Below, piece by piece: positions 17,422-44,139 of a DNA stretch of 64,000 nucleotides; positions within the stretch are counted from its first letter, which is position 1; each line of letters starts with the position of its first letter. Under the pieces are notes generated by a model. That model was not told the origin of the DNA, searched no databases, and saw only the letters and a program-made list of their open reading frames with translations. Source of the stretch: Algoriphagus machipongonensis (GTDB lineage: Bacteria > Bacteroidota > Bacteroidia > Cytophagales > Cyclobacteriaceae); assembly GCF_000166275.1 (NCBI RefSeq), contig NZ_CM001023.1, forward strand, positions 2,855,001 to 2,919,000, written 5' to 3'. The position numbers were made by a program, and so were the translations under genes.

Positions 17422-18729
17422 CTAATTCGAAATTTTTCCTTCTTTGAGTAATTCCTTTTTGATCCCCAAAAGCAAGTCTTCCTCTTCAATAATTTCCTTT
17501 TTCTTACTCAATGTTTTGAGGCATGCAAATTGAATTACATTCACAATATTAGCCCCTGTGAGTTCGTATTTTTTCGAAATCAAATCCAACTTTATCCCCT
17601 TACCCAACTTTGCCTTGAGTGGAATATTTTTTTGCCAAAGACTTAGTCTTTCTGCAGAACCCGGATAAGGAAACTCAATAATGCTTTGAAACCTTCTCGT
17701 GAATGCGGAATCAATGTTACTTTTGAAATTTGAGGCTAAAATTACTAAGCCAGGATGATTTTCAATCCGCTGAAGGAGATAGGAGACTTCCTGATTTGCG
17801 TATTTATCATGTGCATCCCTCACATTGGTTCTTTTACCAAACACCGCATCTGCCTCATCAAAAAATAAAATCCAGTTTTTATTGGCAGCCTTATCAAATA
17901 ATGAGGAGATGTTTTTTTCTGTTTCTCCAATGTATTTTGAAGTAACCATCGATAGGTCAATCCTATAAACATCCTTCTTGGTATATTTACCCAATAGGCT
18001 AGCTGTCAGAGTCTTTCCTGTTCCCGGAGGACCGAAAAACATCACTCTAAATCCAGGTTTAAGGCGCTTGCCCATTCCCCAATCATTCATCAATTGTTGC
18101 TCATGTTTTAACCATTCTTCAATTTCATGAATTTGGTCCAATGTCTTAGAGTTTAAAACCAAATCTTCCCATTCTAACTCTGTCTTAATAAGTTCAGCTG
18201 GAAAGTTTATCCCAAGTTTTGGTTTATTGACTGTACCTGTAGTAAAAAGCTCAGCGTACTCAGAATCCATCAATAAAGCTCCAGACCATTCTGGGTCCGT
18301 TCTACCTACTTCTTCCAAATAAAGAATTCCCTTCTTAAATAATTCTGACTCTTGAAAGATGGGAAAATATTGTCTTCGGGTATTGGGATCATTTCCTGCC
18401 AAAACATACAAAGCTGTTTCCCCTGTGGGAATGATACCACGATGATTTTTTGATTTCACTCCGCCAAACTCAGGGAACTCCCCTCCTTTTGGAAAATAAT
18501 CCTGAATAATCCGGTTAAAAAATCCAGGGTCAACATGAGGAGTCAAAGCCAGCACCAAAAGCAATAAGTTTTGGTTTTGAATCTGATGCTCAAAAATAAA
18601 TTTGCCCAAAGCATCTTCCTTGTTAAGGTGAAGGTTCATCTGGGGTTTTTGCAGGCTATCCACTTTCCCTAGTTCAAAGTCCAGCCGAGATCTTATGGCA
18701 ACATTCAAAAATTTTAACAACTCATTCAT
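17422..18729 (-). CDS. eCIS-associated AAA+ ATPase (Afp15/Pvc15-like)
   Basis: A 435-residue AAA+ ATPase and the last gene of the injection-system operon. Residues 233-240 form Walker A (GPPGTGKT) and 287-292 Walker B (ILFFDE). The region after 300 contains the arginine-rich 'NFKSNIDSAFTRRFQSIIEFP' sensor and arginine-finger segment. The N-terminal about 200 residues are a helical region of the type seen in Afp15/Pvc15 proteins. In related systems this ATPase is conserved and is thought to assist assembly or cargo loading; the exact role is not established. It lies 82 bp after the TPR gene and converges with the 3D-lipoprotein gene. The assignment rests on motif and position. Confidence 0.93.
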   Translation of the reverse strand: MNELLKFLNVAIRSRLDFELGKVDSLQKPQMNLHLNKEDALGKFIFEHQIQNQNLLLLVLALTPHVDPGFFNRIIQDYFPKGGEFPEFGGVKSKNHRGIIPTGETALYVLAGNDPNTRRQYFPIFQESELFKKGILYLEEVGRTDPEWSGALLMDSEYAELFTTGTVNKPKLGINFPAELIKTELEWEDLVLNSKTLDQIHEIEEWLKHEQQLMNDWGMGKRLKPGFRVMFFGPPGTGKTLTASLLGKYTKKDVYRIDLSMVTSKYIGETEKNISSLFDKAANKNWILFFDEADAVFGKRTNVRDAHDKYANQEVSYLLQRIENHPGLVILASNFKSNIDSAFTRRFQSIIEFPYPGSAERLSLWQKNIPLKAKLGKGIKLDLISKKYELTGANIVNVIQFACLKTLSKKKEIIEEEDLLLGIKKELLKEGKISN

Positions 18730-18811: not shown

Positions 18812-19681
18812 CTAGTTTAGTTGTTTTTTTATAAGTTGGGAATAATGTTGAGCTTTTTGATAAGAAGGGTCAATCTTAAGTGCTTTTTCAAACAGTTGAG
18901 CGGCCATTTCCAATTGATTGATACTGAACATCACAACCCCTTTTTCAGTAAGGATTTGTTTATGATCGGGATAGAGCTTCAGAAGGAAATCCAGGTGATA
19001 GAGTGCTTGCTCAATCTCAGACATGGCCATGTAATTTATTGCTAAATAGTGGCGAAAATCCAATTGATCAGGAACTTCTGCTAATGCTTTTTTTAAAGCT
19101 TTTTCTGCTATTCCATAGTTTTTTTGAAGGTGCTCGACTCTGCCAATTTGAAACCAGATTTCAGGATTTTGGCTTTTTTCAGAAACTGAATAAAGAATCT
19201 CCAGTGCATCTTCCAACTGGTTCTGAAGTATTAAAACCTTTGCGTATTCCAGTAAATACTCAGGCCTGGCTTCAATTGCAATGACTTTATTCCAATAGTT
19301 TTTCGCTAGATCATAGTCTTTTTGGTGGGTAGATAATCGAGCTAAACTTATCCAGGCGCCCATGGAATCAGGGTGCTTTTGAGTGGTATCAAGGTATTTT
19401 TGTTTGGCTTCCTCCACCTTGCCCATCATGGCTAGTGTATTTCCTTCATTTATTAAATAGCTAGCCTTATCCTCAATTTTGATCGCCTTTTTAAAATAAT
19501 TTAAAGCTGTTTCAAAATTTTTTTTCTGATGATACAAAAGCCCCATATTGTTCAACAAAGAGCTGTTTTTTGGATCCAATTGAAATGCATCCTTAAACGA
19601 TTTTTCAGCTTCATTCAATTTGCCCTCCAAAAAAGATTTTGCTCCTTGATTATTGAGCTCTATAGCTTTACTCAATTCCAT
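18812..19681 (-). CDS. TPR-repeat protein in the eCIS operon
   Basis: A 289-residue protein composed almost entirely of tetratricopeptide repeats, about eight of them, with the usual helical pattern (for example 'NSSLLNNMGLLYHQKKNFETALNYFKKAIKI' and 'FRHYLAINYMAMSEIEQALYHLDFLLKLYPDH'). There is no signal peptide or transmembrane helix, so it is cytoplasmic. It is not a core structural protein of Afp/PVC-type particles. It begins 9 bp after the larger DUF4157 gene and precedes the ATPase gene, so I infer a role in handling or loading the cargo. The inference rests on position alone. Confidence 0.85.
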   Translation of the reverse strand: MELSKAIELNNQGAKSFLEGKLNEAEKSFKDAFQLDPKNSSLLNNMGLLYHQKKNFETALNYFKKAIKIEDKASYLINEGNTLAMMGKVEEAKQKYLDTTQKHPDSMGAWISLARLSTHQKDYDLAKNYWNKVIAIEARPEYLLEYAKVLILQNQLEDALEILYSVSEKSQNPEIWFQIGRVEHLQKNYGIAEKALKKALAEVPDQLDFRHYLAINYMAMSEIEQALYHLDFLLKLYPDHKQILTEKGVVMFSINQLEMAAQLFEKALKIDPSYQKAQHYSQLIKKQLN

Positions 19682-19690: not shown

Positions 19691-22600
19691 TTAATCAAAT
19701 AAGTCGTTTTTAACATCCCTAGCCAGTCCCTTAGCCATATTAACCACATCCAGATCAGGGTAGATCACTTCAATATCATCAAATGACATATCAAATGGTT
19801 CTCCTTCTCTATATTCCACAGGGAACACGATCCCAAACTGGATATCAGGACCCCATTCGTATGAGGCTAAATTATGCCTCCAAGTTTCCGAGACCGACAG
19901 GAATCCTACCCCCAAGCTTGCCCTAGCGAATGCATTTAATTCAAATGTGAATTTCGGATTCACAGTGATTCTACCTTCAGCATCTATAGCCAAGCCTGTT
20001 TGAGGACTCCAATTCACATCTACAGATGCTAATGCTTCTCCCTCTAAACCTAATTCACCTGCTAGTTCAATTCCACCTGTCAAGCTTGCTATTCCCGCAC
20101 TTACTCCAAGACTCAAGTCCCCGCGAAGTGTTAATCCGGCATCTGCAGGTATTCCAAATTCACCATGACCAGCAACCGTGGTTTCCTCTTCATGCTCAGG
20201 ATTATAAGTAATCTCAGCAGACATATTTCTCAATTCTCCCGGACCAAAACCTGCTGAGAAGTCAAGCCCTCCACCAATTTGCGCAACCAAGCCAATACTT
20301 CTAGGCCCAAGCGGAATAGCAAAAAGTGGGATTTCGATGGTTGGAACAGTGAATAGATTTCTATTGAATTCCCGTCTACTGAAGACCTCATAGCTATCGG
20401 CATCAAGTCTGGCAGTAACTTCAATCTCCCCTTCTGGTGTAAACTTCACTCCCGCTGTGGCTGCCAACCAAGGCGTCAACTGAAGGGTTAATGTTCCACC
20501 TCCATAAACACTAAAGTTTTCATCTGGCTCCCCAGTAGGCTCTCCATCCTCGCCAATTGCCCTATTGGTTGCTCCCACTTCTATCGTACCACTAAGCATT
20601 CCTCGCTCATAGGAAGCTCTACCTTCAAGGGTTATCACTCCGTTTTCATAGGTAACAGACAATGAAGAAGAAATGCCTGGAATATCGGGTTGAGCAGTAC
20701 CAGAAACAAATACACTGTACTCTTCATCACCCTGTGCTTTAGAAACCCGAGCTTCCACATTTCCTCCTGTGATCCCGGGTATATCGCTACTCAGATCAAA
20801 ATTACCGCCAATGGAAAAACCTTCCTCACCGTACTGAATAGACATTGAACCACGTTCAATACCGGGTATATCAAGCTCAGCTTCACCTGTGGCACTGAAG
20901 TTATTTTCGCTATAAGTAGCATTGATAGTGGCAGATTTCACTCCTCTGACCTTGCCTTCGGGAATCCCAATTTCCCCTCCTATGGTCCAGATATTATCCT
21001 TGTATTCTACATTAATTTCTGCTGGATCAAAAAGCTCAGAATCAAAGTTAAAGGCACCTTCCAGTTCGAAACCACCTCCCGTTGATGCAGAAGCACCAAT
21101 ATGTCCTTCACCTACTTGGTCGATACCAAAGTTTACTTGGCCTTGAATTACAAATCCGTTTTGGATCCCATAACCTAAAGTTAAGCTAACATCAGAAACT
21201 GAGAATGGTGCTGGCATGTCAAGATCACCACTGGAAAAGACCTTTTGTAACATGACATCATCTTCTGTGATAACGATTTCTACATTAGATCTTGAAATAA
21301 ATGGTACTGATGGTAATAAGGTCCCAGAACCGATTAATCCAGAATCAGTTATCATCAAATTGTCAATGGAAAATGGACTTAATAAATCAAATTCAGCATT
21401 GCTATTATTGAGGAAATTCTTTAAGTCTTGAGAATCTAAATAGCCAGCATAAGTAGTTCCTGGCATTTTATAAATAGGCCAGTTAAAAAATTCCGGTAAC
21501 ATTAGAATTCTTCGATCTCCTTTTCTGAATTTAAAGGGTTTTCCTCTTAGATGACCTTTTTGACCACTTTCAATTTGAGGATCAAATTGCATTGATTCTA
21601 CATTGAAAAATTTCCCATGCATGGTTAGACGGGGCCTAAACAAATTTGAAGAAGCAGCTTGGGTAATTAAATTTGGATCATTCCAGTCTAGTTTAGTTCG
21701 AGCATTAAGATTATCACCCCAGTAGAGGACATAACTTGAACTTGATCCAATTTGATTCTCTAAGTTAAGGCTAGCCGGATGAGGATCAAATGGCAACGAT
21801 GGGTTGGGATCTGGGTCCTGAAAATCATAAATGCTTATTGCTCTTCTACCCTTTTCTCTATCAAGTAATTTTTGAACATGATCGCCACTCTCAATTTTTC
21901 CCTTATCCCAAATTTTTATATTTGGTGGATCTTGTCCTTGACTGAAACTCCTGTAATGGATATCGTAATTTGGTTTGATGTTTCGGTCTATCGTTCTATT
22001 ATTAATTCTTGAAGTATTGACCCCTCTGGCATTTAGTGCATTTTTTAAATCTTCATCTGCTCCAATTAAGCTAATCAAAGTTCTATTTACGTTTCCCTTG
22101 ATAAGATTACCCGATTCACGGTTAGCTTCTTTTGATAATAAGTGAAGGTTATCTATACCACCGGCAGTCCTAACCCTTGGCCAGCCTTTTAATTGTAATT
22201 CTTGTTTGTGGTCAATTTGGTAAATTTCCTTTTCACCGCTTGGGTCATCCCAAAATGGAACTTTTAAATTTTCTGCCAATAAATTAGGATCACCATTTCT
22301 TTCAAATTTTTTGGTTCTTCCTCCTGATCTTACAGATGTTGTAATTCGATACAACTGATCATTTTGTAAACCTCCATTTAATAACTTTTCTGCTGCCCCA
22401 GTGCTAGCTATGGAATCCCATTCCCCAGCTTGATTGGGGTCGTTTTCCTCTTCTCTACCTCCTCCGCTGAATTCTCTAGCCCGAAAATTATTATCCCCAG
22501 ACATGAAGGTTTGTTTAAAACTTGGTATAGGAAGGTTATCAACATATATTTTTGGAGGGTTTGTGGTGAAATCGAAATTATCGCCTGATTGGGCAATTTC

Positions 22601-23377
22601 ATCTTCCTCTCCCTCCTTCTGCACCATCTTTCCTTGAATAGCCCCACTACTTCCCTGCTGTATGGTATGGGTCAGTTCATGAGCGAGAAGATTTTGACCC
22701 GCTGAACTTCCAGGATCGTACTTTCCCTCATTAAAATAAATATCATTTCCATGAGTAAATGCCTGCGCTCCCAGTTCTTGACTCATCTGTACGGCAGAGC
22801 TATCTGTATGAACTTTTACATCCGAAAAATCAGCCCCGAAGCCACTTTCCATTGAGCTTCTGATACTTTTATCCATCTCAGTGCCCCCAGTCCCTAATTT
22901 TATCTGACTCTCAAGTTGAGGTGAAACGCTACTTTCTTGATCTGATTTAGCTTGAAGACTTCCCGTATTGTTTTCATCTTCCTCATCCGATCCAGCAACC
23001 GAATTCATTTGAACTTCCTCATCCTCCTTCTTTTGGAGTTCTTCCTCCTCTTCTTTCTCTTGAACTTGCTCCTCTTCTACTTTAGCTTGAACAACAGGGG
23101 TTATGGTTTCGGCCAGGGGTTTTTGTTTGCCTTCTGTTTCTGAAGTCTCCTTTGTTTGAACATCTTCTTCTTGTTGGGATTGAACTTGATGATCTGCTTT
23201 AGAAACTGGGCTACCTCCATTCATTTCACCCACCACCTGCTCAGCCATTTGATCAGCTTCGAGTTCGTATTTATCTCCAGGTTGGCCCACATTCAACTTG
23301 GCCTGAAAAAAGTCATCAGGCTGCTTTTGGGCTGAAGCCCCATTATTGTCAGACGTCTTGGAGTTGAAAGACTTCAT
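19691..23377 (-). CDS. DUF4157 eCIS cargo candidate with HNH-like patch and long beta-repeat tail
   Basis: A 1228-residue protein with a modular plan. Residues 22-50 carry the leader motif shared with the neighbouring 498-residue protein (DDFFQAKLNVGQPGDKYE, then EADQMAEQVV). Residues 50-160 are acidic, Gln/Glu-rich and low complexity. Residues about 168-241 are the DUF4157 domain, including GFGADFSDVKVHTD and HELTH at 233-237. Residues about 385-425 contain 'YQIDHKQELQLKG' and 'IDNLHLLSKEANRESG', which resemble an HNH-type nuclease core (Asp389-His390, Asn410, Asn419). Residues about 690-1190 are repeated beta strands such as 'DIPGITGGNVEARVS' and 'DIPGISSSLSVTYENG'. DUF4157 proteins are known companions and cargo of eCIS. 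The nuclease assignment is tentative, and the beta tail is unidentified. Confidence 0.85.
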   Translation of the reverse strand: MKSFNSKTSDNNGASAQKQPDDFFQAKLNVGQPGDKYELEADQMAEQVVGEMNGGSPVSKADHQVQSQQEEDVQTKETSETEGKQKPLAETITPVVQAKVEEEQVQEKEEEEELQKKEDEEVQMNSVAGSDEEDENNTGSLQAKSDQESSVSPQLESQIKLGTGGTEMDKSIRSSMESGFGADFSDVKVHTDSSAVQMSQELGAQAFTHGNDIYFNEGKYDPGSSAGQNLLAHELTHTIQQGSSGAIQGKMVQKEGEEDEIAQSGDNFDFTTNPPKIYVDNLPIPSFKQTFMSGDNNFRAREFSGGGREEENDPNQAGEWDSIASTGAAEKLLNGGLQNDQLYRITTSVRSGGRTKKFERNGDPNLLAENLKVPFWDDPSGEKEIYQIDHKQELQLKGWPRVRTAGGIDNLHLLSKEANRESGNLIKGNVNRTLISLIGADEDLKNALNARGVNTSRINNRTIDRNIKPNYDIHYRSFSQGQDPPNIKIWDKGKIESGDHVQKLLDREKGRRAISIYDFQDPDPNPSLPFDPHPASLNLENQIGSSSSYVLYWGDNLNARTKLDWNDPNLITQAASSNLFRPRLTMHGKFFNVESMQFDPQIESGQKGHLRGKPFKFRKGDRRILMLPEFFNWPIYKMPGTTYAGYLDSQDLKNFLNNSNAEFDLLSPFSIDNLMITDSGLIGSGTLLPSVPFISRSNVEIVITEDDVMLQKVFSSGDLDMPAPFSVSDVSLTLGYGIQNGFVIQGQVNFGIDQVGEGHIGASASTGGGFELEGAFNFDSELFDPAEINVEYKDNIWTIGGEIGIPEGKVRGVKSATINATYSENNFSATGEAELDIPGIERGSMSIQYGEEGFSIGGNFDLSSDIPGITGGNVEARVSKAQGDEEYSVFVSGTAQPDIPGISSSLSVTYENGVITLEGRASYERGMLSGTIEVGATNRAIGEDGEPTGEPDENFSVYGGGTLTLQLTPWLAATAGVKFTPEGEIEVTARLDADSYEVFSRREFNRNLFTVPTIEIPLFAIPLGPRSIGLVAQIGGGLDFSAGFGPGELRNMSAEITYNPEHEEETTVAGHGEFGIPADAGLTLRGDLSLGVSAGIASLTGGIELAGELGLEGEALASVDVNWSPQTGLAIDAEGRITVNPKFTFELNAFARASLGVGFLSVSETWRHNLASYEWGPDIQFGIVFPVEYREGEPFDMSFDDIEVIYPDLDVVNMAKGLARDVKNDLFD
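22106..22213 (-). other. HNH-like nuclease patch within the large DUF4157 protein
   Basis: Encodes residues about 389-424: Asp389-His390 (QIDHKQEL), Asp409-Asn410 (IDNLHLL) and Asn419. The spacing of about 20 residues between the DH pair and the N, then 9 to the final N, fits the betabeta-alpha-metal pattern. Tentative, by eye only. Confidence 0.45.
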
Positions 23378-23413: not shown

Positions 23414-24910
23414 TTAATTTCCCAACTTCATTAAATCGATAAAACTGAATACATCTACCTTATTGAGCTTTTTATCATTTAAGTTTTTCTTAATCTGATC
23501 AATTTGATCGGGATTGGTTTTATCTAGTTTTTGGTCTGCATCGGCCATACTATAGCTTGGGTGCCCTCCACCTCTCCACATCATATTATCTTTGTTTTGA
23601 ATATGATGTAATTTCTTGATCAAATTCCCCAGTAATCCAGCTTCATCCCTTTTTTCCATCAAATGTTTTAAGCCTGCTGTATGCCCCACCTCATGTGGAA
23701 TAGTATTTTTATCTGATCCAGAAATCATTCCTGGAGTGTGCTTTTCATTTAAATACACAATGGTTCCATAGAATGGTCCCCTTCCATAAGTACCCTTTAC
23801 TTTGGGATGGGAATCATCTAAAACCACCATTAAATGCTCCTCAAAAAAATTAAGGTCTGTCAACTTATTAATCACCCGAATATCTGCGCTGGTACTCACA
23901 TCATATAACACGTCGATTCCTAATAACTTCTTTCTTAATTTACCTTGATAACTATTCTCAATTTGGCTTTTCGCAGCACTGGCAAGCCCTGATGTGTTTA
24001 AGGCCGCATTCGAACTTTTATTAAGAACTGCAGCTTTAAATTTTAAATTTAAATCAGCCTTGATAGTCGTCCCGTCATAGGACTTATACGTTTCATTTTT
24101 AGCCCATTTTCTTTGCACTTTCCTTTGCACCATTCCTTTTTGTTGAATGGTATGAGTCAATTCGTGAGCTAACAGACGTTTCCCATTCTGGCTTTCTGGT
24201 TGATATTTACCAGAATTAAAATAGATATCATTTCCATGGGTAAAAGCTTGTGCATGGATTTGCTTACTCATATCATTCGCTCTGGCATCATGATGGATTC
24301 TTACCTGACTAAAATCAGCACCAAAACCACTTTCCATTTCATTTTTAATGGACTTATCTAATGCTTTCCCAGAACCTTTGCTTTGATTTAAGGTAGTTTC
24401 AATTGAATTAGCCCTTTTTTGGTGATTCAAATTGTTAGCCTCGGACTTTGTTTGAAGCGCCTCCTCTTCTTCCTCAGCTTGTACAGCTTCCTCCTCTTCT
24501 TGTGATTGTACAGCCTCCTCTTCTTCCTGAGACTGTATCGCTTCTTCCTCCTCTTGGGATTGAACAGCTTCCTCTTCCTCTTGAGACTGGACCACCTCTT
24601 CTTCTTCCTGAGCCTGAACTGGTTCCTCCTCCTTCATATCCTGCTTTTGAACTTTACTAATGGATTCAGAAATTGGTTTTTGCTGTACCTCCTCCTCCTC
24701 AGCCCCTTTGGATTGAATTGGGTCAGTGGAAGAAGTTTGATTTACCACCTTATCAGCCATGGCATCTGCTTCTTGCTCATACTTATCACCCGGCTTTCCA
24801 GTTTCAAGTTTTGCCTGTACGCCAAAAAAATCCTTTGATTGATCATCGGATTTCATTGAAACCTGATTATTACTTAATTCTGGCTTATGTTTTTTCTTCA
24901 ATTCTCTCAT
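23414..24910 (-). CDS. DUF4157 eCIS cargo candidate with C-terminal metzincin-type metalloprotease
   Basis: A 498-residue protein. Residues 27-56 hold the same leader motif as the neighbouring 1228-residue protein (KDFFGVQAKLETGKPGDKYE, then EADAMADKVV). Residues about 99-152 are six tandem copies of a nine-residue QSQEEEEAV-type repeat. The DUF4157 domain follows at about 183-257, with GFGADFSQVRIHHD and HELTH near 249-253. The C-terminal half holds HEVGHTAGLKH at 406-416, a zinc-binding HExxHxxGxxH motif, followed about 27 residues later by 'DNMMW', a plausible Met-turn. This is the pattern of metzincin proteases. Adjacent to the tape measure gene, it is an excellent candidate payload. Export and loading are inferred from family association. 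Confidence 0.88.
   Translation of the reverse strand: MRELKKKHKPELSNNQVSMKSDDQSKDFFGVQAKLETGKPGDKYEQEADAMADKVVNQTSSTDPIQSKGAEEEEVQQKPISESISKVQKQDMKEEEPVQAQEEEEVVQSQEEEEAVQSQEEEEAIQSQEEEEAVQSQEEEEAVQAEEEEEALQTKSEANNLNHQKRANSIETTLNQSKGSGKALDKSIKNEMESGFGADFSQVRIHHDARANDMSKQIHAQAFTHGNDIYFNSGKYQPESQNGKRLLAHELTHTIQQKGMVQRKVQRKWAKNETYKSYDGTTIKADLNLKFKAAVLNKSSNAALNTSGLASAAKSQIENSYQGKLRKKLLGIDVLYDVSTSADIRVINKLTDLNFFEEHLMVVLDDSHPKVKGTYGRGPFYGTIVYLNEKHTPGMISGSDKNTIPHEVGHTAGLKHLMEKRDEAGLLGNLIKKLHHIQNKDNMMWRGGGHPSYSMADADQKLDKTNPDQIDQIKKNLNDKKLNKVDVFSFIDLMKLGN
24452..24616 (-). repeat. Tandem 27-bp repeat encoding QSQEEEEAV-type units
   Basis: About six near-identical 27-bp units in the N-terminal part of the 498-residue DUF4157 gene, encoding QAQEEEEVV, QSQEEEEAV (three copies), QSQEEEEAI and QAEEEEEAL. 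The copies differ by single substitutions, so the array is old enough to have drifted but still in frame. Such arrays can expand or contract. Confidence 0.9.
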
Positions 24911-24959: not shown

Positions 24960-26573
24960 CTACCATTCCACAAATAACAATTCTTTCCGCCAAGGAAATT
25001 TCACCAAGCTAATGGACCATGGGACTTGATCTAGTAAAATGTCCTGAGCTTTTCTCTCAACCACCATTTTATGATGATTACCCTGGAGACTAATTTTTCC
25101 CCTTCTACACAGAAACTCTGATCTAAGTGTATCTGCGCTAGTACTTTTTAATGCTTTCCAGTGACCTAATACATCAGAAAGCAATTCTTCAGCAGCTTCC
25201 TTCATATCATCAGGTAAGACCACATTTCTTTCCAGAGGTTGATCAAAAGGAATATTGCAGCAATATTTTTCAAATAGCAACTCATGATCAAAAGCCTCTT
25301 CCTCCTTCGTTGCTAAAAAATGTAACAGATGAACAGCAGTGTTTTTATCTTTCAATCGATTATCCTCACCTATCAATCCAACATTCTTAAAAAATGGCTT
25401 AACGAAGGAATGAATCAAAACCAAACCAGCTTGACTTACGAGAATTCCTTCATCCAAAATTGAAGTTTCCTCATCTTGGTGATCATCATTAATTTCCTTT
25501 TGTGGTTCTTCTATTGTTGAATCTTTGGTTTTCCAAGCATCTAAAAGCGCTGTCTGATCATTTTTAGAAATAGTGGCTTTTTTCCATTTGCCATCTTTTC
25601 CAAGCAGGCTAAGCTTTTGATTGAAAACAGAAAAGGAATCTTCTACTGATTGATATTTTTCACCATGAAAATCCTTGGCAAATTGATGCATTTCATTCAG
25701 TAGGATCTGTATTTTCTGAAAATTATAAGGATCGTTTTGAACTGCCTTTTGCCAGAAAGAATTAACCTGAGTAATAAATTCTGTCTTATAGCTTTTATTG
25801 GAAAGGAGTTTCCAATTCAGTGTCCAAAATTCATTTTTCAATTTGTTTTCTGGTACTGATTTTATCCAGGATTTATAAATTTTGCTTTGCTTCAATCCGT
25901 TGGTAGTATTAGCAAGCTCCATAAATAAAATTGATAATTGTGCGTCAGAAAACTGCTTGATAAAGCGCGCCAAAACCTCTTTTTGTCCAGCAAGCTCGAT
26001 TAAATATTTCCTAAAAATCGGCTCCTCCAGAAGGTATTTAATGTCTTTTAAATTGTCCCATCCCTTGAAGAAATTAGTCTTTTCATTTTCTCCAATCCAC
26101 CAAGGAAGCCTTCCATTTTGAAGTACATATATGATAGTGTTAATCTCTCTTGAAGTACTAGAGTCGAGATTTAAACGCTCACTTTCTGTTAAACTTTGGT
26201 CAATAATAGATTTGGGAACAGCCCCTTCCTGGGCTTCCATCTCCACAACTTTACTCTCCAATTGTTTAAGCTGCTGCTCTAACTGAACTTTGAACTGATT
26301 TAATAAATGATCTAGCACCAGCTTATTTTTAGTTTTACCGAAGCTATCGATCAAATCTTTTTGGCTTTTTAGATCAATTTTTAAGGAGGGGATCTGTAAA
26401 TGCTTATTAGAAACTTTTTGACTGATCATTTCGAGGTACTCCTCCAGTACTGGGAATAACTCTCTCTCTAAAAATGAAGAAACATGATTTTTGATATGAA
26501 AAGCAGTTTCTTCATCTGAAGTATGGAATTCGACCATCACCTTGTTGACAATATGTTTCTTTACTTGTTCCAA
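24960..26573 (-). CDS. eCIS tape measure protein (Afp14-like)
   Basis: A 537-residue mostly helical protein. The N-terminus (VMVEFHTSDEETAFHIKNHV) and the C-terminal block with 'LVLIHSFVKPFFKNVGL', 'AVHLLHFLATKEEEAFDHEL' and the closing 'VPWSISLVKFPWRKELLFVEW' match the conserved ends of the contractile-injection-system tape-measure family. In Afp-type particles this protein sets the length of the tube. Its short length, compared with tape measures of long-tailed phages, predicts a short to medium particle. It follows the fibre-like gene with a 4-bp gap and precedes the first cargo candidate. Confidence 0.88.
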   Translation of the reverse strand: MEQVKKHIVNKVMVEFHTSDEETAFHIKNHVSSFLERELFPVLEEYLEMISQKVSNKHLQIPSLKIDLKSQKDLIDSFGKTKNKLVLDHLLNQFKVQLEQQLKQLESKVVEMEAQEGAVPKSIIDQSLTESERLNLDSSTSREINTIIYVLQNGRLPWWIGENEKTNFFKGWDNLKDIKYLLEEPIFRKYLIELAGQKEVLARFIKQFSDAQLSILFMELANTTNGLKQSKIYKSWIKSVPENKLKNEFWTLNWKLLSNKSYKTEFITQVNSFWQKAVQNDPYNFQKIQILLNEMHQFAKDFHGEKYQSVEDSFSVFNQKLSLLGKDGKWKKATISKNDQTALLDAWKTKDSTIEEPQKEINDDHQDEETSILDEGILVSQAGLVLIHSFVKPFFKNVGLIGEDNRLKDKNTAVHLLHFLATKEEEAFDHELLFEKYCCNIPFDQPLERNVVLPDDMKEAAEELLSDVLGHWKALKSTSADTLRSEFLCRRGKISLQGNHHKMVVERKAQDILLDQVPWSISLVKFPWRKELLFVEW

Positions 26574-26577
26574 GAAA

Positions 26578-29500
26578 TTATACCATTAAAGTCAATTGAT
26601 TTTGTAAGCCATTTTTCAGGTAAGGAACACTATCAAAAACTTCTAACAATTCTTCATAGATACCGGGGATTTCATCATTTACATCCCATTTGATACTTGA
26701 TCCCTGTAATTCTTTAAAGTCAGAGGTTATTCGGCTTACAATCGCATCAAACTGAAACTCAGCACCTCTTTCAATCAGGACTTCTTTGTCTTGACATCTA
26801 ATCAATGTATAGAATAATTGAACAAAGGTTTTGTACAGATCTTTCATTGGAAGTACTCCTGGTCCATTATTTGAATTCATCTCCATTATGTAAGAAATTA
26901 ATGGTGGATAATGATTCGAGAAAATCTGCATCAGTTGTTTATTCTGCTCATCCCCACCGGCTAAGTATAGACTTGAATTTTTGACTATTTCAGCGAAACC
27001 AATAATGTCAGCACCATTATCATTCTTAATTCCATTAATTGCCTGAGTGTAAGTTTGCTGTCCCCAGTCATCTATTTTTTCAAAATCCGGACTTTCCATG
27101 AACCTCGATATCCTCAAATTCTGATCTGAAAGCCATTTCTCACCTATATCTGTACATGTGTCGACTGAACCCGATTGTAAAATTATTATTGATACATTAG
27201 AACTTGCTTCTTCGCATAGATTGCTAAGTATAGCAAGAACGGAAACCTTTAATGAAGTTACTGAAGCAGGGAAAGTTTCGGTATAAGAGCTCTCTGAAGT
27301 ACCTGCTCGGTCCTTATCATTTATTGACCAGATATACTCTCTTACTGAAGAAGGTGGATTAGTAATAGTTAGGGTAACTGTTTTTGAATTATTTGTTGGG
27401 TTATTAACCGCTGAGGTTGTAAATGCAATCACTGGAGTTTGATACACTCTTACGATCAAGTCCGTTTCCTTACCATTTACCCTAAACCTTAAATCCTTTT
27501 CCAGATCTATATCTTCAATCAGGATTGGGTTAAATACAAATCCATTTCCATTTTCTCCGGGTTGAACTCCCGGACCAGTCACATTTCCGTCATCTGGAAC
27601 CACTCCAAATGCAACAGGTTCAGTACTTTGGTCCCTACAGAATTCATTTGGAGTTAAGGTTAGATCAACTTCCTCTTCCTGTTCCTCAAAAACAATTTCT
27701 CCAGTAACTCTATTTGGGCAAGCACCATTTTCAGGAGTAATAGTCAATGAAACTGAAATTTTATTTTCAGCATTTACAGGTAAAGAAAAAGTCTTTTTGG
27801 GTGCTACCTCAGTAGAAGAAGTACCATCTCCGAACTCCCATAAATACCCTGCATTATCAAATGAAGGAGAGGCAGAAAATTCAATGCTAGGATCACTTAC
27901 CGGGCCATCTGGTAGATTTAAGACAAATGTAGGAGCTTGTAAAACTGTTAACTTAGCATCTGTAGGTTCATCATTTACCAAGAATGATATAGCTTCTCCA
28001 AGCATCTCTTTAGGAAATGCTCCAGGATCAATGCTAATAGATCGACCTGAGATAATTACACCCGCCACATTATCTACCACTGTCACTTCTCCATCCACAG
28101 GTATCACCTCAAAGCTGATCTCCTCTTGCTCTAAACCTAGGCAATAGGTTTCGGTATTAAGGTTTAAGAAAATAACTGGACGCGGAACGATGAAGTTAAT
28201 TGGATTGCAATCTGAACAGCATCGATATGGGAGCATAAAATCTGCTATGACCGTTTTGTCTTTTAAATTACTCTTAAGATTCCTACTCTTCAATACATCT
28301 AAACCATGCAAACTAGATTTATCTCCTGATAGCTGTTTTCTAAAAATTTCAAGATCCTTTTCCAAGTTTTTAGGATCAGTAAAAAGATTCAACTCCTTAC
28401 TGATTTCATTCAAATCAATCGTCTTTGAAAAATCTCCATAACTATTTTCTGCAACACTTATTTCCTTAAACCCAGCAATTGAAATCCCTCTTTTACTCAC
28501 ACGGGTAGGTCGTGTGTAATAGACCATCACAAAAGTTCCTCCCTTACTTACTCCAGCTCTATGATCTAGACCAGGATGGTGTTCATGAAAGTTTGAAAAC
28601 TGTAATTGCTCAAGGATGTGTTTCTTTCTAGCTTCAATTTCTGCCTGAAGAATTTTCAGTTTATTTGCGGCACAACAAACAGATGTAAAATACAATGCGC
28701 GGGACTGCAGGCTACTTTTCAATCTATCATTGATAGAAAGTTTTTCCACTCGCTTGCTAAACTCGTCTAGTTTCTCACACAAACTTTCAATAGAAGTCTC
28801 ATATTCAACAATATAGCCACTATCTAATTCAAAAAGTCTTTCAGGTATATAGTTAGAGATATCGTAGGATGCAGCAATAATTTCTATGGGCTTGTCCACT
28901 AAAGCAACTTTTTCATCTTCTTGGATTTGAAAATCTTTTAGGTAATTAGCTACCTCTTTTTCTGCCTCAACTTTAATTTCATTGTACCCATAGTAAACTG
29001 GCATTTCAGCAGTGAAGACTGGTTGGAATACAAATCCAAGAGATTCCTCCTCTTCTTTCACATTTTTTATAACGCTTTCCCGAATGCTTTTACTATTCTC
29101 AGTTTTGTAATCCTGAGTGGACTCAAATAAGTAAGGATACAGTCTTTTAGCTTCTGCTAAAGTGATTTTCTGATTTTTTATCAAAATTGCCAATTGCTCC
29201 AAAGTCATGGTATCACTCTTTGAAGTTGGTTGATAAACCTTGGATGTTTCTTTAATTGAAGCTACTTCGGATTCAGATTCAGCTGCTGCATTTTCCTCTA
29301 AAAGTTCCTTGATTTTTAAGGAGGTGAAAAATGAGGTTATCTTCCCTGTAACACAACTGATCTCATCATTCCATGCATCAAGCAATACCATTAAATCTTC
29401 AAAGTGACACTTATAATCCTCCATTCTTATGGAATCCAATGCCTCATTTATGGAAACTGCTTTTACATCAAAATCCAGGTTGTACTTATAAACCAAATCC

Positions 29501-30909
29501 TGAATTTCAATCATCGCTTTTTCGAAGCCTTGCCCCTGATGTCCTTCTATCCTATAAAAATCATTTTCGTCAGTATCTATTTCTAATGGTTCTATCGTAA
29601 TTCCTGTCTCTTCATCCTTTTGCCTTACATAACTGGTAATATCAGAATTGAACCCCATTCTAGATTTTTCAAAACTCCAATTATTCAAAAGGACACTGTT
29701 CGCTTTGTAATAAAAAGGGATTGCCTTATCTCCTAAATCTCCGCTAAATACTGAGGGAGTGATATTGATATCCGTCACAGGAGTATGGAAAGTGGATAAA
29801 ATCAACCGTAGTCTTTCCAATAATAAATGAAGTTTATTGGTGACAGAAGTATCTCCAGTAATTGGGGAGCTGTAAAACCCATGTCGGTATTGCTCAGTTC
29901 CAACAGATGGAATGACCCTTCCTAGCATCAAATGTTTTGGGAATGCATTGATATCAGGTAGACATGTAGCATTTAGCTTGAAAAGGGTTTCGATTATTTC
30001 ATGGTAGGTACTAATGACATCCCTCAGCCAATCATATTGATACTGGAAAAAGTTAACATAGGTGGAACTGGGTTTCTGCTGGAAAATTTTGAGTGCTTGC
30101 TCTACATTCACATTTACTCCCAAGAATTCAGATATACTGTTCAAGCCATCAGAAAGCTTTCCAATATCAGCTCCCATAATCGCGCTGTAATAACTGTCTT
30201 CTAATTTTTGCAAATCTTTAGTATTTGCCTTGGACAGCAACACCTTTTGTAATTTGACTTTCTTTAATTTTCCATAAAGAGTTTTAATATCAAGCTTTTG
30301 GTAAACTCCATCATCTGCAAGCAAGTGCTTGGCCCCTGCCACATCTGTGAGCAATACTCTTAAATGAGCAACCTGCTCTACCCCTTGATTATCACAGTTT
30401 ATTCCACTACACAAATCCGCCTCACGAGCATAGGTTTCCAGGTATAAAACCGCTATTTTATCAACCAGACCACCTATTTGGGAAATGGGTTGATCCGTCT
30501 CGTTGGCTTTTTCCTTAGGTACTAATTCCCATAAATTGATTTTGCTTTCTCCTAAATTGAATTTTTCGTAATGGCTGTTTTCATCGTTAAAATCCCGAAA
30601 ATGAGTATAGTCTACGAATTCTTCTACTATCCTAAGACCAGGAGAATCTTCTTCAGCAGCCTCTCTTAAAAGTTTCAGCAAATCTCCATCTGTGGTCACT
30701 CCTATGCCTTGGGAAACACGAATAATGGTACTCGTGGGCCTGCTGATCTTAAATCCACAGACGATTCCGACTCCATTCAAAAAAACACGCGTCAATCGGT
30801 CCTGGTCTTCAAAAAAAGCTATAGACTCATTTAATTGAGTATGAGTCAATACCTGATCCACTTTGTAAGTGTGGTATTGGGTTGTGATTGTACTTAGTTT
30901 ATTAGCCAT
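26578..30909 (-). CDS. Large PKD-containing putative eCIS fibre/receptor-binding protein
   Basis: A 1443-residue protein occupying the position of afp13/pvc13. The N-terminal about 600 residues are a conserved helical region (VLTHTQLNESIAFFEDQDRL, GVGIVCGFKIS) that I associate with Bacteroidota eCIS proteins. A middle segment carries 'HHPGLDHRAGVSKGGTFVMVYY'. Residues about 1000-1075 contain a PKD-like domain (SASPSFDNAGYLWEFGDGTS). Another beta-rich, PKD/Ig-like part follows at about 1150-1240, and a helical C-terminal domain spans about 1245-1443. There is no signal peptide. PKD and Ig-like domains often bind surfaces, so a baseplate-attached or target-binding role is plausible. It is not assignable to a known phage fibre family. 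Confidence 0.7.
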   Translation of the reverse strand: MANKLSTITTQYHTYKVDQVLTHTQLNESIAFFEDQDRLTRVFLNGVGIVCGFKISRPTSTIIRVSQGIGVTTDGDLLKLLREAAEEDSPGLRIVEEFVDYTHFRDFNDENSHYEKFNLGESKINLWELVPKEKANETDQPISQIGGLVDKIAVLYLETYAREADLCSGINCDNQGVEQVAHLRVLLTDVAGAKHLLADDGVYQKLDIKTLYGKLKKVKLQKVLLSKANTKDLQKLEDSYYSAIMGADIGKLSDGLNSISEFLGVNVNVEQALKIFQQKPSSTYVNFFQYQYDWLRDVISTYHEIIETLFKLNATCLPDINAFPKHLMLGRVIPSVGTEQYRHGFYSSPITGDTSVTNKLHLLLERLRLILSTFHTPVTDINITPSVFSGDLGDKAIPFYYKANSVLLNNWSFEKSRMGFNSDITSYVRQKDEETGITIEPLEIDTDENDFYRIEGHQGQGFEKAMIEIQDLVYKYNLDFDVKAVSINEALDSIRMEDYKCHFEDLMVLLDAWNDEISCVTGKITSFFTSLKIKELLEENAAAESESEVASIKETSKVYQPTSKSDTMTLEQLAILIKNQKITLAEAKRLYPYLFESTQDYKTENSKSIRESVIKNVKEEEESLGFVFQPVFTAEMPVYYGYNEIKVEAEKEVANYLKDFQIQEDEKVALVDKPIEIIAASYDISNYIPERLFELDSGYIVEYETSIESLCEKLDEFSKRVEKLSINDRLKSSLQSRALYFTSVCCAANKLKILQAEIEARKKHILEQLQFSNFHEHHPGLDHRAGVSKGGTFVMVYYTRPTRVSKRGISIAGFKEISVAENSYGDFSKTIDLNEISKELNLFTDPKNLEKDLEIFRKQLSGDKSSLHGLDVLKSRNLKSNLKDKTVIADFMLPYRCCSDCNPINFIVPRPVIFLNLNTETYCLGLEQEEISFEVIPVDGEVTVVDNVAGVIISGRSISIDPGAFPKEMLGEAISFLVNDEPTDAKLTVLQAPTFVLNLPDGPVSDPSIEFSASPSFDNAGYLWEFGDGTSSTEVAPKKTFSLPVNAENKISVSLTITPENGACPNRVTGEIVFEEQEEEVDLTLTPNEFCRDQSTEPVAFGVVPDDGNVTGPGVQPGENGNGFVFNPILIEDIDLEKDLRFRVNGKETDLIVRVYQTPVIAFTTSAVNNPTNNSKTVTLTITNPPSSVREYIWSINDKDRAGTSESSYTETFPASVTSLKVSVLAILSNLCEEASSNVSIIILQSGSVDTCTDIGEKWLSDQNLRISRFMESPDFEKIDDWGQQTYTQAINGIKNDNGADIIGFAEIVKNSSLYLAGGDEQNKQLMQIFSNHYPPLISYIMEMNSNNGPGVLPMKDLYKTFVQLFYTLIRCQDKEVLIERGAEFQFDAIVSRITSDFKELQGSSIKWDVNDEIPGIYEELLEVFDSVPYLKNGLQNQLTLMV

Positions 30910-30920
30910 GACGGTAAAGA

Positions 30921-33722
30921 TTAAAGAGTTCCCAAATTCGTTTTTCCAAGAATTAATTTGCCATCCAATTCTTCTTCCTCATCCTCACAATCGTATAGTC
31001 GACCTGTGGGATAAATAGTATGAAGCCCAGTAAGAGAGCTTGTCATTTCATTTAATACTTGATTGTATTTATTCATTGATGCTATAAAGCCTTTCCTCTT
31101 ATGAATATCAGTCAATTCAAAGAGGTAGTTCTTATAGGCTTTTTCAAAAATCTCCAATTGATTTTCCTTGAAAATCGGGGTCTCTGGATTCTCTACATCT
31201 TCTTGAAAAAGCTCTGGTTCTTCTCCTTTTCTGTAGCCTATCCAGCAGATTTTTGCTACGATATGTGCAGGCAGTTCTTCTCTGATTAGATTTTCGAGGT
31301 AGTCCCTAAAGTCCTTATTTGCAAAACGATAAGTAAACCCTGGCAAGACGATGCTTACCCTAAAGGAATATGGGTCAATCATTTTACAGTTCTCGTAATC
31401 ATCTGAGCAAAAAGGAAGAAAATTTCCTTCGATGTATTCTTTTCCAGCATCAGTTTGCATTGCTAAATACTCAGGATCAAGTGGGCTCGGACGTAGTAAA
31501 ATATGCTCTACTAAATAGATCCCTTCTTCTGTAAACGTATACTTAATAAAATTCAAAAGTGAAATTGCACCAAGAACGGCCTGAGTTCGATCTGGATAAT
31601 AGGTATACTGTTTTGCAACAATGAAATCAGAACTTGACTCAGAGTCAATTACAGGATTGATTATGTCAAAACTGAACTTATTTGAAGTGGCGGCTTTATG
31701 AAAATGGAAACTTCCAGCTTCATTTTCATTTCTAAAATTAACTTCTAAAAGCTTCTCTAAATCACTTAATGGGGTTTCCAGTATTTTGAGAATTGCAAAG
31801 TACATCTCATTACCTGCTGAATTATAAGTAGGATACGAAGTTGTAGCTGATAACAAAACCTTCCCATTTTCATCTCTTATCCTCCAGCGATAAACCCAAT
31901 TTCCATCTACATGTTCGTACCGATAAATCTCAACAGCAGTATCAGATAAATTTCTTCTACTATAATCTTTAACACCTACCAGTTTCGAAATTCTCTTTTG
32001 AGCTCCTGATACATTTAGCGTATCCCAAAGATTGTCATTGCTTTGCTCATAAAAATTAAATCCCTCTCCTCTTTCTCTACTGATCTCTTTGTATTCTCGA
32101 AGGAAGCTTTGCTTGTCCTGTAGCACAATCTCATCAGTACTTTCACCATAAAGGAATTTCATTAAAAATGCATAACTGCTAAAGTTCTCCGCAAATCTGG
32201 CGATCAAGTGATCCATCAATTGGTTCCTTCTCTCAATGGTATCATCTAACTTTCCTATAAGCGATTTGGTTAGCTCCTCATCATTTTCAAGTAAAGTCGG
32301 GTCTTTAAACAACTCCTCTACATCTTTAATGTCTTTTATTGCTTGCGTGAAATAGGTAAAACTAGGGCCTTGATCTAGGGAGAGTAAGGATTTTATCTTT
32401 GAAAGGTGTTCGAAATAGGAAGCTAGAATCTGATCAAAAAACAAAAGGTATCCTTTTAACTGTCTTGCCAGAACAGCCCTTTTTACACCCAATTTTGGAG
32501 GTAATCCTATATCACTGATTCCATACGTTTCGGGAAATTCATGTTGAATAGAGCTGTATTCTCCCCAGTCAGCGAAGGTTCCCTGAGGAATTGCAGGCTC
32601 TAAATCATCCTTAGCTTTTAAATCATTTTCAAGCCTGGAGGCTAAAATTTTAGATTTATGATTATCGACTCTTACAGGATTAAGATTAATAGGTAAAATG
32701 CCTTTAAAGTAATTGATCGTTGTCTTTTTACAGAGTTTAGGTTTCTTATTTTCTGGAATGCAGATTACCCATTGATTATTTTCGATCCCATCATTTTCAT
32801 CACAATTCCCAAGAGTGATTTCCTTAACTATTTTCACTCCATCAATCGACATGATGATATTGATAATATCAGACAATCGCACTTCTTTCCTGAGTTCGGA
32901 TGCTTTTAGTTCAACCGTATCAATAAATCCATTTTCTAAAAAAGGACCTTCAAAAATCTCATCCATAGTGTACCCTTTATCCACCATTTGTTTTAAAGAA
33001 TAATGGCGGGGTGATGGAGCCAAATAATCCTCAATGGCAATCAAGATCTGAGCATGAATGAGCTCTTCATCTGCCTCAGGAGCCACCTCAACATTGGCAC
33101 ATACTGAGATCGGTTCAGTAGCTACTTTTTCAACTTTTATTAAGTCTTCGCATAGATTTCTATTTGCATGAAACTTGGTAAATACCGCTTTTTCAAGTGA
33201 TTCAGAAAGCACCTTGTCAGCATCCTCAGTTTCTACTAAAATTCTATACAAGCCCTTTAGATCAAACTGTGCTTTTTGGTTTTCTTTTAAATCTTCCCAT
33301 ATAGTTTTCTCATAGGATAACTTTTGATTTTTTAGGTCTGCAAAAACAGTCACTCTTTCTCTTTTTATCCAACAGTTCTTTATGCCTTCTATATCAATGA
33401 ATAATTTTCTAAGGTCCAATTCACTGGTTGGTGCGGAAGGCAAAATCTCTTGAACTTTGTAAAATTGTCCTTTGACCCCTCCTTCTTCATTTGCTATTAA
33501 ATCCTCTATCGGTATGTTGATCCTGTTACCAAGGTCTGAAATCGCATAGCAAAGAACCTCAAGCATGGTAATACCAGGGTCATGGGTATTATAATCCGTC
33601 CAAAAATTGCTTCCCAGCTCTTTGATATAACGAATCCCTTCTTCTCTCAAAAAATGGAAATCCAGATCGTCTTTGGAAGACATATCTTTAGGAATGCTGA
33701 TATGCTTATTTAATGTTGACAT
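30921..33722 (-). CDS. eCIS baseplate wedge protein (Afp12-like)
   Basis: A 933-residue baseplate protein. The N-terminal motif 'LGSNFWTDYNTHDPGITMLEVLCYAISDLGNRINIP' is typical of Afp12/Pvc12-type wedge proteins. The bulk is alternating helix and beta with no transmembrane segment. It begins inside the end of the baseplate-J gene (13-bp overlap with the preceding ORF), which points to translational coupling. It should pair with the upstream baseplate protein to build the wedge around the spike hub. Assignment is by motif, length and order. Confidence 0.9.
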   Translation of the reverse strand: MSTLNKHISIPKDMSSKDDLDFHFLREEGIRYIKELGSNFWTDYNTHDPGITMLEVLCYAISDLGNRINIPIEDLIANEEGGVKGQFYKVQEILPSAPTSELDLRKLFIDIEGIKNCWIKRERVTVFADLKNQKLSYEKTIWEDLKENQKAQFDLKGLYRILVETEDADKVLSESLEKAVFTKFHANRNLCEDLIKVEKVATEPISVCANVEVAPEADEELIHAQILIAIEDYLAPSPRHYSLKQMVDKGYTMDEIFEGPFLENGFIDTVELKASELRKEVRLSDIINIIMSIDGVKIVKEITLGNCDENDGIENNQWVICIPENKKPKLCKKTTINYFKGILPINLNPVRVDNHKSKILASRLENDLKAKDDLEPAIPQGTFADWGEYSSIQHEFPETYGISDIGLPPKLGVKRAVLARQLKGYLLFFDQILASYFEHLSKIKSLLSLDQGPSFTYFTQAIKDIKDVEELFKDPTLLENDEELTKSLIGKLDDTIERRNQLMDHLIARFAENFSSYAFLMKFLYGESTDEIVLQDKQSFLREYKEISRERGEGFNFYEQSNDNLWDTLNVSGAQKRISKLVGVKDYSRRNLSDTAVEIYRYEHVDGNWVYRWRIRDENGKVLLSATTSYPTYNSAGNEMYFAILKILETPLSDLEKLLEVNFRNENEAGSFHFHKAATSNKFSFDIINPVIDSESSSDFIVAKQYTYYPDRTQAVLGAISLLNFIKYTFTEEGIYLVEHILLRPSPLDPEYLAMQTDAGKEYIEGNFLPFCSDDYENCKMIDPYSFRVSIVLPGFTYRFANKDFRDYLENLIREELPAHIVAKICWIGYRKGEEPELFQEDVENPETPIFKENQLEIFEKAYKNYLFELTDIHKRKGFIASMNKYNQVLNEMTSSLTGLHTIYPTGRLYDCEDEEEELDGKLILGKTNLGTL

Positions 33723-36700
33723 TCTTCTTCATTATTTAAGGATATGCTTGAGCAATTTTGAGTGATGGGAGTTACAAGATGCTCCTTTGCAGATACAAGA
33801 ATAGATTTGGGGTTACTTGGTTGGATATACTCTTTCTCTGTTGTTTCAATAAAAATGGGGTTGCAAGGAGATGAACCAGCTTGACGCTTTAACAATCTCA
33901 AATCAGTGATATAATCAACATAAGTCAATTGCTCCAAGTAATGAATCATTTGGCTTCTATGTAAAGTCACTCCAAATTCCACCGAGCTTTCCTGATCATA
34001 AGCCCAAGGAGAAAGGAATTTCTTGATATCCTCTTTCACCTTGGTTAAATAAAAACTGACATCCAGCCCCTCTCTAAATTTTACTTTTACATCCACCTTG
34101 ACTTCCTCATAATTGGGATTGATTACTTTAGCTTGCACGTGAAATGAATTAAGTTCATTAACAAATGCTGCTACATCGTTTAATGTGCCTTGGCTAACTC
34201 TAGGCTGATAAATATCAAAGACTGATTGCTGCACCGTATCTGGAACCAAGATCAAAGTAGCATTCCCCGGAGATTGGAATGAAGAGGAACAAGTATGGTT
34301 CAGGCACTTTACTTTATAGACTTTTGGAAATTTCTGAAGAATTAGGTGTTCATAATCCCAAAGTGTAATAGCTCTTTTTTTATGCCTTAAACGCTCACTT
34401 ACTCTTCTATAATAATCCTCATCGGATTCTTGAGCCTTACCTTTTGTCGATGGATAGGGCTGTTGAATGGATTTAATCCAGCTCAGCCGCTCCTGCAGCT
34501 TGCTGATTGTCTCGGCAGGCAATCCCTTTTCCAAATGATTCCCTGAACTGCCCTGATCCTCAAAAACAGCTTCTACAGCTTGAGCATGAATGTTAATGAG
34601 CTGGCTTACCACATCAAAAGGTTTTACCATACTAGCCTTTATCCAATGATAACCAGGAGGTAAAACTGTATTATCAAGGTTTGCTTGTTTGGGTATGGAA
34701 AACTGAAAAATTCCCGACTTTAAAAATCTGGGAGTTTGGTTTTGAATGATCTCACCACTTTGAAAATCCTGCCATTGGTTTTGGCTTAAGTACTGCCATT
34801 TTATTTTTTGATTTCCGGTAAAAATATCTGTGATGTCTGGGTTTTCACTCCCTTCCAAAAACTGAAGTAATAGGGTTACCTGTTGAAGGTTTTTACCATT
34901 TTCCAAACCAATATACAGCTCGCCCCCATGGCAATAATCAGGTACTAGATATAATGAATTATCGGTATCCCCCGGAGTAAAAACTTGTTGAAAACCAAAG
35001 GGCATTTCATGAATGAGGGAAACTTGGTTTTCTGAACTACTAGAGCTAAAATCAATAGATGAAATAGCGGTATATCCCAACACTAAATTTTCAGCTAAAG
35101 GGGCATAGGGCTCATTAGGCAACAATTCTATGGTAGGGTCTGTATCTTTTGATATTGCAACCAAAGTAAAATAATGGGCATATTTTTCATGGAGAAAAGA
35201 ACGTTCTAAGCTTATTTTCAGCTCTTTTTTTAACCCACTTTCCCATACCCCATTTTCAATTTGAAACTCAAAATCGGATTCATACCCTCCACCCGATTTT
35301 TCAGAAAATAATTGGTCAGAATCATTTGATGATTTCGGGAAGCTCTTCACAGAAAAATAATCCATATCAGATACCAGAGGTTCATCATCTCCAATAGTGT
35401 AAGCTGAATAGTGGTTAACCAAATTTTCTGGCAAATTCAGATAATCCATTTGATAGGATATGGCTGTTACCGGCTTTTCCATTGCCTCTGGATACTTGAC
35501 AATAAATGATGAACCTTTTATGGGGCGTGGACCAAATGGAAAAAATGGTTTTTGGGGATTTAAAACTCCCAGATCATTTTCTAGCTGAACACTCGTTATA
35601 TCGCTAACCTCAACAGTTATTTTCAGATCCGTTAGTACATTCTCATTAAACAATCGATATAAATTATAGCCTTCTTTTTCATTGGTTTTAAACAAGACCC
35701 TCAGTAATGGTTCGTCTACTTCATAACTTCCCTCATGGAGTTCTGTCTGATAGGGAACTACTGCGGGTTGCTCACTATCAAGAGTCAATGAAAGCTTCAT
35801 TTTTTTTGAGCCCGAATTTATCCCACTGTCACTTTTAAGAGTCATAGGAAGGCCTGCGATCCATCCTTTCTCTCCTGTTAGCTCGATGGACATCGCCTTA
35901 TTTAATGCAGTATAATCTTCCCCATTTGGCAAAATGGGTTTATTGAAAGTAAACTCCAGAATAATATCCCGAGTACCTTCAGATAGTTTTAACAGTTTAC
36001 TGGATATAGAACACCCCAATCTCGCTTTAGGAAGTGCTGGGAGTACGGTAGAAGCATTGCAAATTTTGGTATAGCCAAAAGGCCACCATTTTTCAGAACC
36101 TTTGGGAAAATCTTCCCCTAAGCCATCGAATGAATTTGCCATAGGAGCCATGACAAAAGTACCTGTACTAATTGGGGTATTTAATTCTTTGATTTCCTCT
36201 TTTTCTACCGAAATCTCATTATACAAGCTTTTCAGCTGGCCAACCTTGGTTTTATTGAGAACCGTTTCAAAAGATGTCAGGTAAGTGTTTTTCTTCCCAG
36301 TATCGTCTTTACCACCATCTACTTCAGTTCCTTCATCAAGCTTTTCCTGAGACACGTTTTTTGCCAGCTCAAAAATTAAGAATACATGATCTGGACTTAA
36401 AGCTTGCTTTTCAAGATGAAGTATTTCTTGATAGTAAAAATCAAGATGCCTTTTGGTGAGTTGATTAAATCGCTTTTTACTGGTTTCTAATAATTTCAGA
36501 AAGGAAACAAAAAGGGTCAAATGTGGAGTCAGCTTTCCAGATTGATCATATGCTGCGAGAAATTCCTCAATATTTCCCCTCAGTTTCTCGAAATCATCTA
36601 AATTCTCAATATCACTGATTAAGGTCTTATCCGAAACTATAGTGGAAAAGAAATTCCTCCAGTCTCCTAAGGGTTCATTTGCTAAATCACTTGGAAAAAA

Positions 36701-36862: not shown

Positions 36863-36872
36863 ACTTTACTTT

Positions 36873-37578: not shown

Positions 37579-37635
37579 CTTTATTGGTTTATCTAGTTAA
37601 AATTTTATTCAAGTTGTAATTCACTCTATTTCTTA

Positions 37636-40068: not shown

Positions 40069-40071
40069 GAC

Positions 40072-40673: not shown

Positions 40674-40679
40674 GGAGTA

Positions 40680-43269: not shown

Positions 43270-43281
43270 AGTAAAAAAGGT

Positions 43282-44136: not shown

Positions 44137-44139
44137 AAA

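Follow-up and report, generated by a model that had tools for sequence, protein, structure and literature searches.

Cargo toxins of extracellular contractile injection systems (eCIS) are already known, in the available portions of the papers cited here, for an eCIS core domain that serves as their marker, toxin domains at the C-terminus, long linkers and immunity genes that are often missing (PMC3482391, PMC8213781, PMC11297309, PMC13277306, PMC13314943, PMC12210884). According to Geller et al. 2021 (PMC8213781), these linkers may be longer than 1,000 residues. AlgoCIS, one of the most thoroughly resolved contractile injection systems and without a known target, contains two cargos with the DUF4157 domain, Cgo1, with two HExxH motifs, and Cgo2. 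Both are reported in the tube lumen, from which Cgo2 is further described as disappearing upon contraction, filled particles amount to about 96% in the wild type, 37% without Cgo2, 38% without Cgo1 and 7% in the double mutant, and the available portion of that report assigns no function to Cgo2 (PMC8894135). Here, we examine P0001, an open reading frame (ORF) encoding 1,228 amino acids from its ATG on the minus strand (19691..23377) of a 64,000-nucleotide stretch of Algoriphagus machipongonensis (NZ_CM001023.1, positions 2,855,001 to 2,919,000; hereafter the window), which is in all likelihood Cgo2. Our analysis favors, with a probability of roughly 0.6, a lumen-loaded Cgo2 composed of three modules with separate histories: a leader and core for loading, a swappable nuclease and a TPR-linked beta tail.

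Judged by sequence, the locus is the AlgoCIS of A. machipongonensis. A tube protein of the window is identical to the solved AlgoCIS structure 7adz at 142 of 142 residues, the 1,050-residue baseplate protein matches 7aeb over positions 1-1050 (2,400 bits, identical in the printed part of the alignment), and the AlgoCIS match of the 692-residue sheath spans positions 1-692 (1,544 bits). The minus-strand cluster around P0001 comprises a sheath, two tube proteins, a spike, gp25, baseplate J, a tape measure, a cap and an AAA ATPase. Only two eCIS_core proteins occur in the genome, adjoining each other in this cluster, and P0001 has both the core domain of an eCIS cargo and a place inside an eCIS cluster. 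Because the locus matches AlgoCIS, the genome has two such cargos and the other one, P0002, carries the two HExxH motifs described for Cgo1, we infer that P0001 is Cgo2 and that its locus tag is ALPR1_12690.

The central cassette and its HNH-type patch

The comparisons rest on a set of 123 proteins, reduced to 121 by leaving out the other cargo, P0002, and P0037, which has only part of the tail and lacks a core, and to 117 by leaving out four that lack the core segment. The HNH region and the tail share one ORF at 49 loci; 42 loci plus the window entered one comparison and 37 plus the window entered the correlations, from which L023, L043 and L057 were left out because their next gene is not TPR, and others because they lack the AAA or tape measure gene. 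Tree tests used 36 sequences, after removal of the N-terminally truncated L021 and L030.

Searches with the two halves of the protein differed widely in yield, with 14 proteins retrieved by residues 255-700 and 283 by residues 700-1228 (120 of the 283 listed). On alignment, however, 121 of 122 tail-bearing proteins prove to have homologous middles, and we therefore rejected the notion of unrelated warheads between constant ends. Along the 117 proteins, identity falls into three blocks: positions up to about 250 vary with the core, those from about 260 to 740 with the HNH region, and the remainder with the tail only, most distinctly beyond residue 900. Pairwise identities of the middles are bimodal, with a trough near 0.40-0.45, and yield 17 types whether the threshold is set at 0.40 or at 0.42 (13-20 types between 0.35 and 0.50). 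Tails of up to 98% identity accompany middles with an identity of 19%. Mapped onto the tail tree, the types require 57 changes, compared with a minimum of 16 and a mean of 79.9 in shuffles; on the core tree the count is 69, against a mean of 80.0 in shuffles. For the middle data of 36 loci, the tail tree is worse by 2,315 log units, and each of the tail, TPR and AAA trees is rejected by a margin above 2,200. In each of the six largest types, divergence of the middle does rise with that of the tail (Spearman 0.26-0.93), so saturation alone does not account for the missing overall correlation.

The clearest individual case is provided by Cyclobacterium roseum (L011) and C. salsum (L012), whose DNA is 91.7-94.8% identical in three pieces totaling about 22.6 kb. 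What remains unmatched between them is the block encoding effector residues 252-732, together with 450 bp inside the other cargo gene. In this one pair the flanking genes, followed for about 10 kb in each direction, do not change along with the cassette, so that no type-specific immunity gene lies beside it. A search of 395 Bacteroidota genomes with the cassette profile gave eight matches at E<=1e-5, six of them strong and in proteins that also carry the tail, and two weak and short.

The original prediction placed an HNH-type active site within this region, and the pattern of conservation bears it out. Across the 117 aligned homologues, W376, H390, Q395, N410, N419 and G423 are kept without exception, while at position 389 three carry E and the other 114 D; the D389-H390/N410/N419 pattern has thus been retained rather than lost. 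G362 joins these six residues as invariant in a set of 42 cassettes (41 loci plus the window) that reaches across phyla to records of Nitrospira, Anaerolinea, Novosphingobium and Kangiella. When the profile of these 42 was compared with the PDB at E<=5, it retrieved six sequences, namely three Cas9 entries, two Cas8f-HNH entries and one AAA protein; the Cas9 and Cas8f-HNH matches are weak (E 0.22-0.84), and in the two printed Cas9-chain alignments the D-H, N and N positions stand in register with the cassette. Pfam HNH is matched by 17 of the 42 cassettes at E<=0.1 (best 5.7e-4) and the NCBIfam IscB model by nine (best 0.0016), with each remaining family matched by one member. The AlphaFold2 model places a strand at 386-390, a second strand at 411-415 and a helix at 416-440 (mean predicted local distance difference test score 86.3), in the beta-beta-alpha order expected of the patch. 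We take the cassette domain to belong to the HNN subtype of HNH. Taken together, the cassette very likely carries an HNH-type metal-dependent nuclease, and the named residues make the function of Cgo2 directly testable.

Several results weigh against this assignment and lend some substance to an HNH-like fold retained for structure or binding, without cutting of nucleic acids. The HNH-family profiles match part of the relatives with weak scores, and the window's own cassette matches none of those in Pfam or NCBIfam; a VIA-align fold search with the domain found no match among 11 chains; and hhalign to cellular HNH proteins fell on the motif with a score no better than that of controls. Such a non-cutting role is nevertheless improbable, as the motif residues stay constant while the remainder drops to about 20-25% identity, and related modules of other effectors carry nucleases. 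The pattern of middles and tails could also reflect rapid evolution in place, without exchange, and the homology of the middles in nearly all tail-bearing proteins agrees with this. Against it speak the bimodal identities, the dispersal of the types across the tail tree and a border that falls sharply within DNA otherwise 92-95% identical; already refuted for the Cyclobacterium pair, it has become scarcely credible, and we rejected it. An exchangeable warhead is highly likely to explain the pattern.

The beta-module and the co-varying TPR protein

The tail had been described as repeated beta units over residues 690-1190 that may form a beta-solenoid. Its beta character stands, as the tail is almost wholly beta in the AlphaFold2 model (predicted template modeling score 0.46), but the repeat does not extend through it. 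The motif DIPGI occurs three times only, at 836, 865 and 898, and detectable repeats (lag 27-33) are confined to about 785-925, with a best diagonal of 41.3 against a mean of 22.9 and a maximum of 38.1 in 50 shuffles; a single repeat unit across the whole tail was therefore rejected. The solenoid found no support either: the repeat array is short, and the structure matches listed contain no solenoid, consisting instead of transmembrane beta-barrels (VDAC, Tom40, OprD, LptD) and lipid-binding sheets (ApoB100, MTP), all of them poor fits, with superpositions on the barrels at a root-mean-square deviation of 10-24 A.

The strands of the tail are long and alternate hydrophobic and polar residues, giving one strongly hydrophobic face. 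Amphipathic windows make up 0.37 of the tail and 0.10 of shuffled versions, a value that exceeds those of 39 other proteins of the window (maximum 0.23) and of 21 outer-membrane barrels that the genome encodes (0.11-0.26); this test used 40 of the 49 ORFs of the window, nine overlapping ones being left out, and 21 of 44 barrel places. Matches retain 66-89% identity over more than 500 residues, and protein length is nearly constant across the family. The tail is thus predicted to be a beta-meander of amphipathic character, similar to membrane barrels or to sheets that bind lipid, from which a membrane role, the boldest part of our reading, may follow, with somewhat less than even odds. Related beta-modules lie in the middle of seven other effectors, four of which carry C-terminal nucleases. 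As a separate observation, the cargo is strongly acidic (net charge -23 in the leader, -51 in the tail) despite the mostly negative tube lumen reported for AlgoCIS (PMC8894135, legend of Extended Data Fig. 5).

A TPR protein is encoded immediately after the effector in 41 of the 48 loci that have an ORF downstream, and its divergence follows the tail (Spearman 0.82; partial Mantel 0.77, 0/999) rather than the middle (0.10); the corresponding value for AAA and tail is 0.48. That the TPR protein is the chaperone of the tail has, in our estimate, an even chance.

Its position directly downstream would also suit an immunity protein of the nuclease. This role is quite improbable and was rejected, however, because the TPR protein tracks the tail and not the cassette and stays stable while the middle changes, being 93% identical between two loci whose middles are 26% identical. 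Protection of the producer may instead be built into the effector if the beta-module acts as a shell or zymogen clamp that keeps the nuclease inactive, in the manner of Rhs or TcB-TcC cocoons; the lack of a neighboring gene exchanged with the cassette in the Cyclobacterium pair, the long strands with one strongly hydrophobic face and the absence of a reported growth effect for Cgo2 alone in the available portion of PMC8894135 are compatible with this. Against it, no Rhs-type shell is among the structure matches listed, and the related module precedes C-terminal nucleases elsewhere, so that a shell-forming module would need to wrap around different domains, lying before it in some proteins and after it in others, which leaves the clamp unlikely. 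A mere spacer filling the tube lumen, which would fit the reported location of Cgo2 (PMC8894135) and the nearly constant length of the family, is very improbable, since it would need neither the identity of 66-89% over more than 500 residues nor the alternation of hydrophobic and polar residues.

Under the three-module reading, the glutamate-rich leader and the eCIS core, which both co-vary with the AAA ATPase, would serve loading. The TPR protein would hold the beta-module soluble in the producer, while the core and the AAA ATPase would direct Cgo2 into the tube; after firing, the beta-module might insert into or coat the target membrane and bring the nuclease to its nucleic acid. In a more tentative extension, possible at best, Cgo2 would be a cargo with its own translocon: the TPR-solubilized beta-module would form a barrel or lipid-coating sheet in the target membrane and pass whatever HNH warhead occupies the middle of the protein at the time, so that warheads could be exchanged without an immunity gene, and the same module would constitute the unexplained "long linker" of other eCIS toxins.

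Leader, eCIS core and neighboring genes

At E<=1, the sole Pfam match of P0001 is eCIS_core (PF13699, E 1.3e-32), which scores 112 bits where the cut-off is 22; its HExxH recurs in all 47 related proteins that match the core. The leader and DUF4157 domain were predicted to be shared with the neighboring cargo, and P0001 and P0002 do align over both parts with 41% identity across 274 columns (E 8e-49), which supports a paralogous pair with different warheads. The proposed attachment to, or delivery on, the outside of the particle fell, because PMC8894135, in its available portion, reports both cargos in the tube lumen. The features discussed are collected in the following table.

Features of the cargo locus, in positions of the window
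Feature	Position	Strand	Remarks
Effector gene P0001, inferred Cgo2 (ALPR1_12690) of AlgoCIS	19691..23377	-	1,228 aa
Leader, residues 1-160	22898..23377	-	Glu-rich; net charge -23; common to Cgo1
eCIS core domain (PF13699, formerly DUF4157), residues 168-243	22649..22876	-	HExxH present
Exchangeable central cassette, residues about 252-732	21182..22624	-	borders about 240-260 and 723-743
HNH-like active-site patch, residues 386-440	22058..22222	-	D389, H390, N410, N419
C-terminal amphipathic beta-module, residues 736-1228	19694..21172	-	
TPR protein, next gene downstream of effector	18812..19681	-	289 aa; co-varies with beta-module
AAA ATPase	17422..18729	-	435 aa; co-varies with effector's eCIS core
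Partner cargo P0002, inferred Cgo1 (ALPR1_12695)	23414..24910	-	498 aa; eCIS core and second HExxH
AlgoCIS structural genes: tape measure, baseplate, spike, tubes, sheath, cap	24960..44733	-	

Other loci show further arrangements of eCIS cores. For instance, Aureisphaera galaxeae has a row of nine eCIS-core ORFs spanning about 17 kb (L070:6038-22839), and single ORFs with two cores each occur at L044:9632-14629, where the second lies at the extreme C-terminus, and at L056:8948-15211. The Cgo1-like cargo of C. roseum (L011:9653-10549) has 298 residues, compared with 448 in C. salsum (L012:9653-10999), and is without a stretch of about 150 residues that carries the second HExxH in the C. salsum copy. 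The AAA ATPase of the window has 0.80 identity to that of Echinicola salinicaeni and 0.47 to those of three other Algoriphagus loci (L007, L009, L014 and L015 compared), which points to transfer of the eCIS locus.

Comparison with known systems

Among the papers listed for AlgoCIS or Cgo2 in the one library searched, PMC8894135 alone, seen in part, contains both words; other uses of "Cgo2" concern, by title, materials or other fields. The literature searched there holds no HNH assignment for Cgo2 and no exchange of a central cassette, and the word "HNH" is absent from the main text of PMC8213781 and PMC11297309. The protein is taken to be the one already described; what this analysis adds is its assignment to HNH, the exchange of the cassette, the analysis of the tail and the link to TPR. 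A nuclease effector is reportedly, by title, the subject of work by Rocchi et al. in 2019.

Individual parts of Cgo2 have counterparts elsewhere. The HNN-type HNH domains of Cas9, Cas8f-HNH and IscB are among the closest to the cassette, whose D-H, N and N stand in register with two Cas9 chains, but the cassette has no RNA guide and a different context. The beta-module resembles transmembrane beta-barrels and lipid-binding sheets, yet it superposes poorly on them and travels as cargo instead of being exported to an outer membrane. In the large eCIS_core proteins L051, L068, L071 and L072, a related module (E 1.5e-25 to 1.2e-29) is joined to a PF13930 or WHH nuclease; unlike in Cgo2, the module lies in the middle and the nuclease at the C-terminus, and no TPR homologue was found in these loci.

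The polymorphic toxins of Photorhabdus virulence cassettes (PVC) and other eCIS likewise have an N-terminal eCIS core, variable toxin domains that include nucleases and often no adjacent immunity gene, but as far as the available portions of these papers go (Zhang et al. 2012, PMC3482391; Geller et al. 2021, PMC8213781) their toxin sits at the C-terminus, frequently behind a linker of great length, whereas that of Cgo2 is central, belongs to one superfamily in all types and is followed by a conserved C-terminal module. Of the classical features of polymorphic toxins, Cgo2 shares the variable domain exchanged by recombination beside a conserved delivery part; its cassette precedes about 500 conserved residues instead of ending the protein, and no adjacent immunity gene is co-exchanged (Cyclobacterium pair only). 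Cgo2 thus appears ordinary as an eCIS cargo and new in its modularity, with a probable nuclease exchanged in mid-protein. The central site of this warhead departs from the C-terminal rule of polymorphic toxins, and the conserved module with its own probable chaperone offers a concrete candidate for the role of the long linkers in eCIS toxins.

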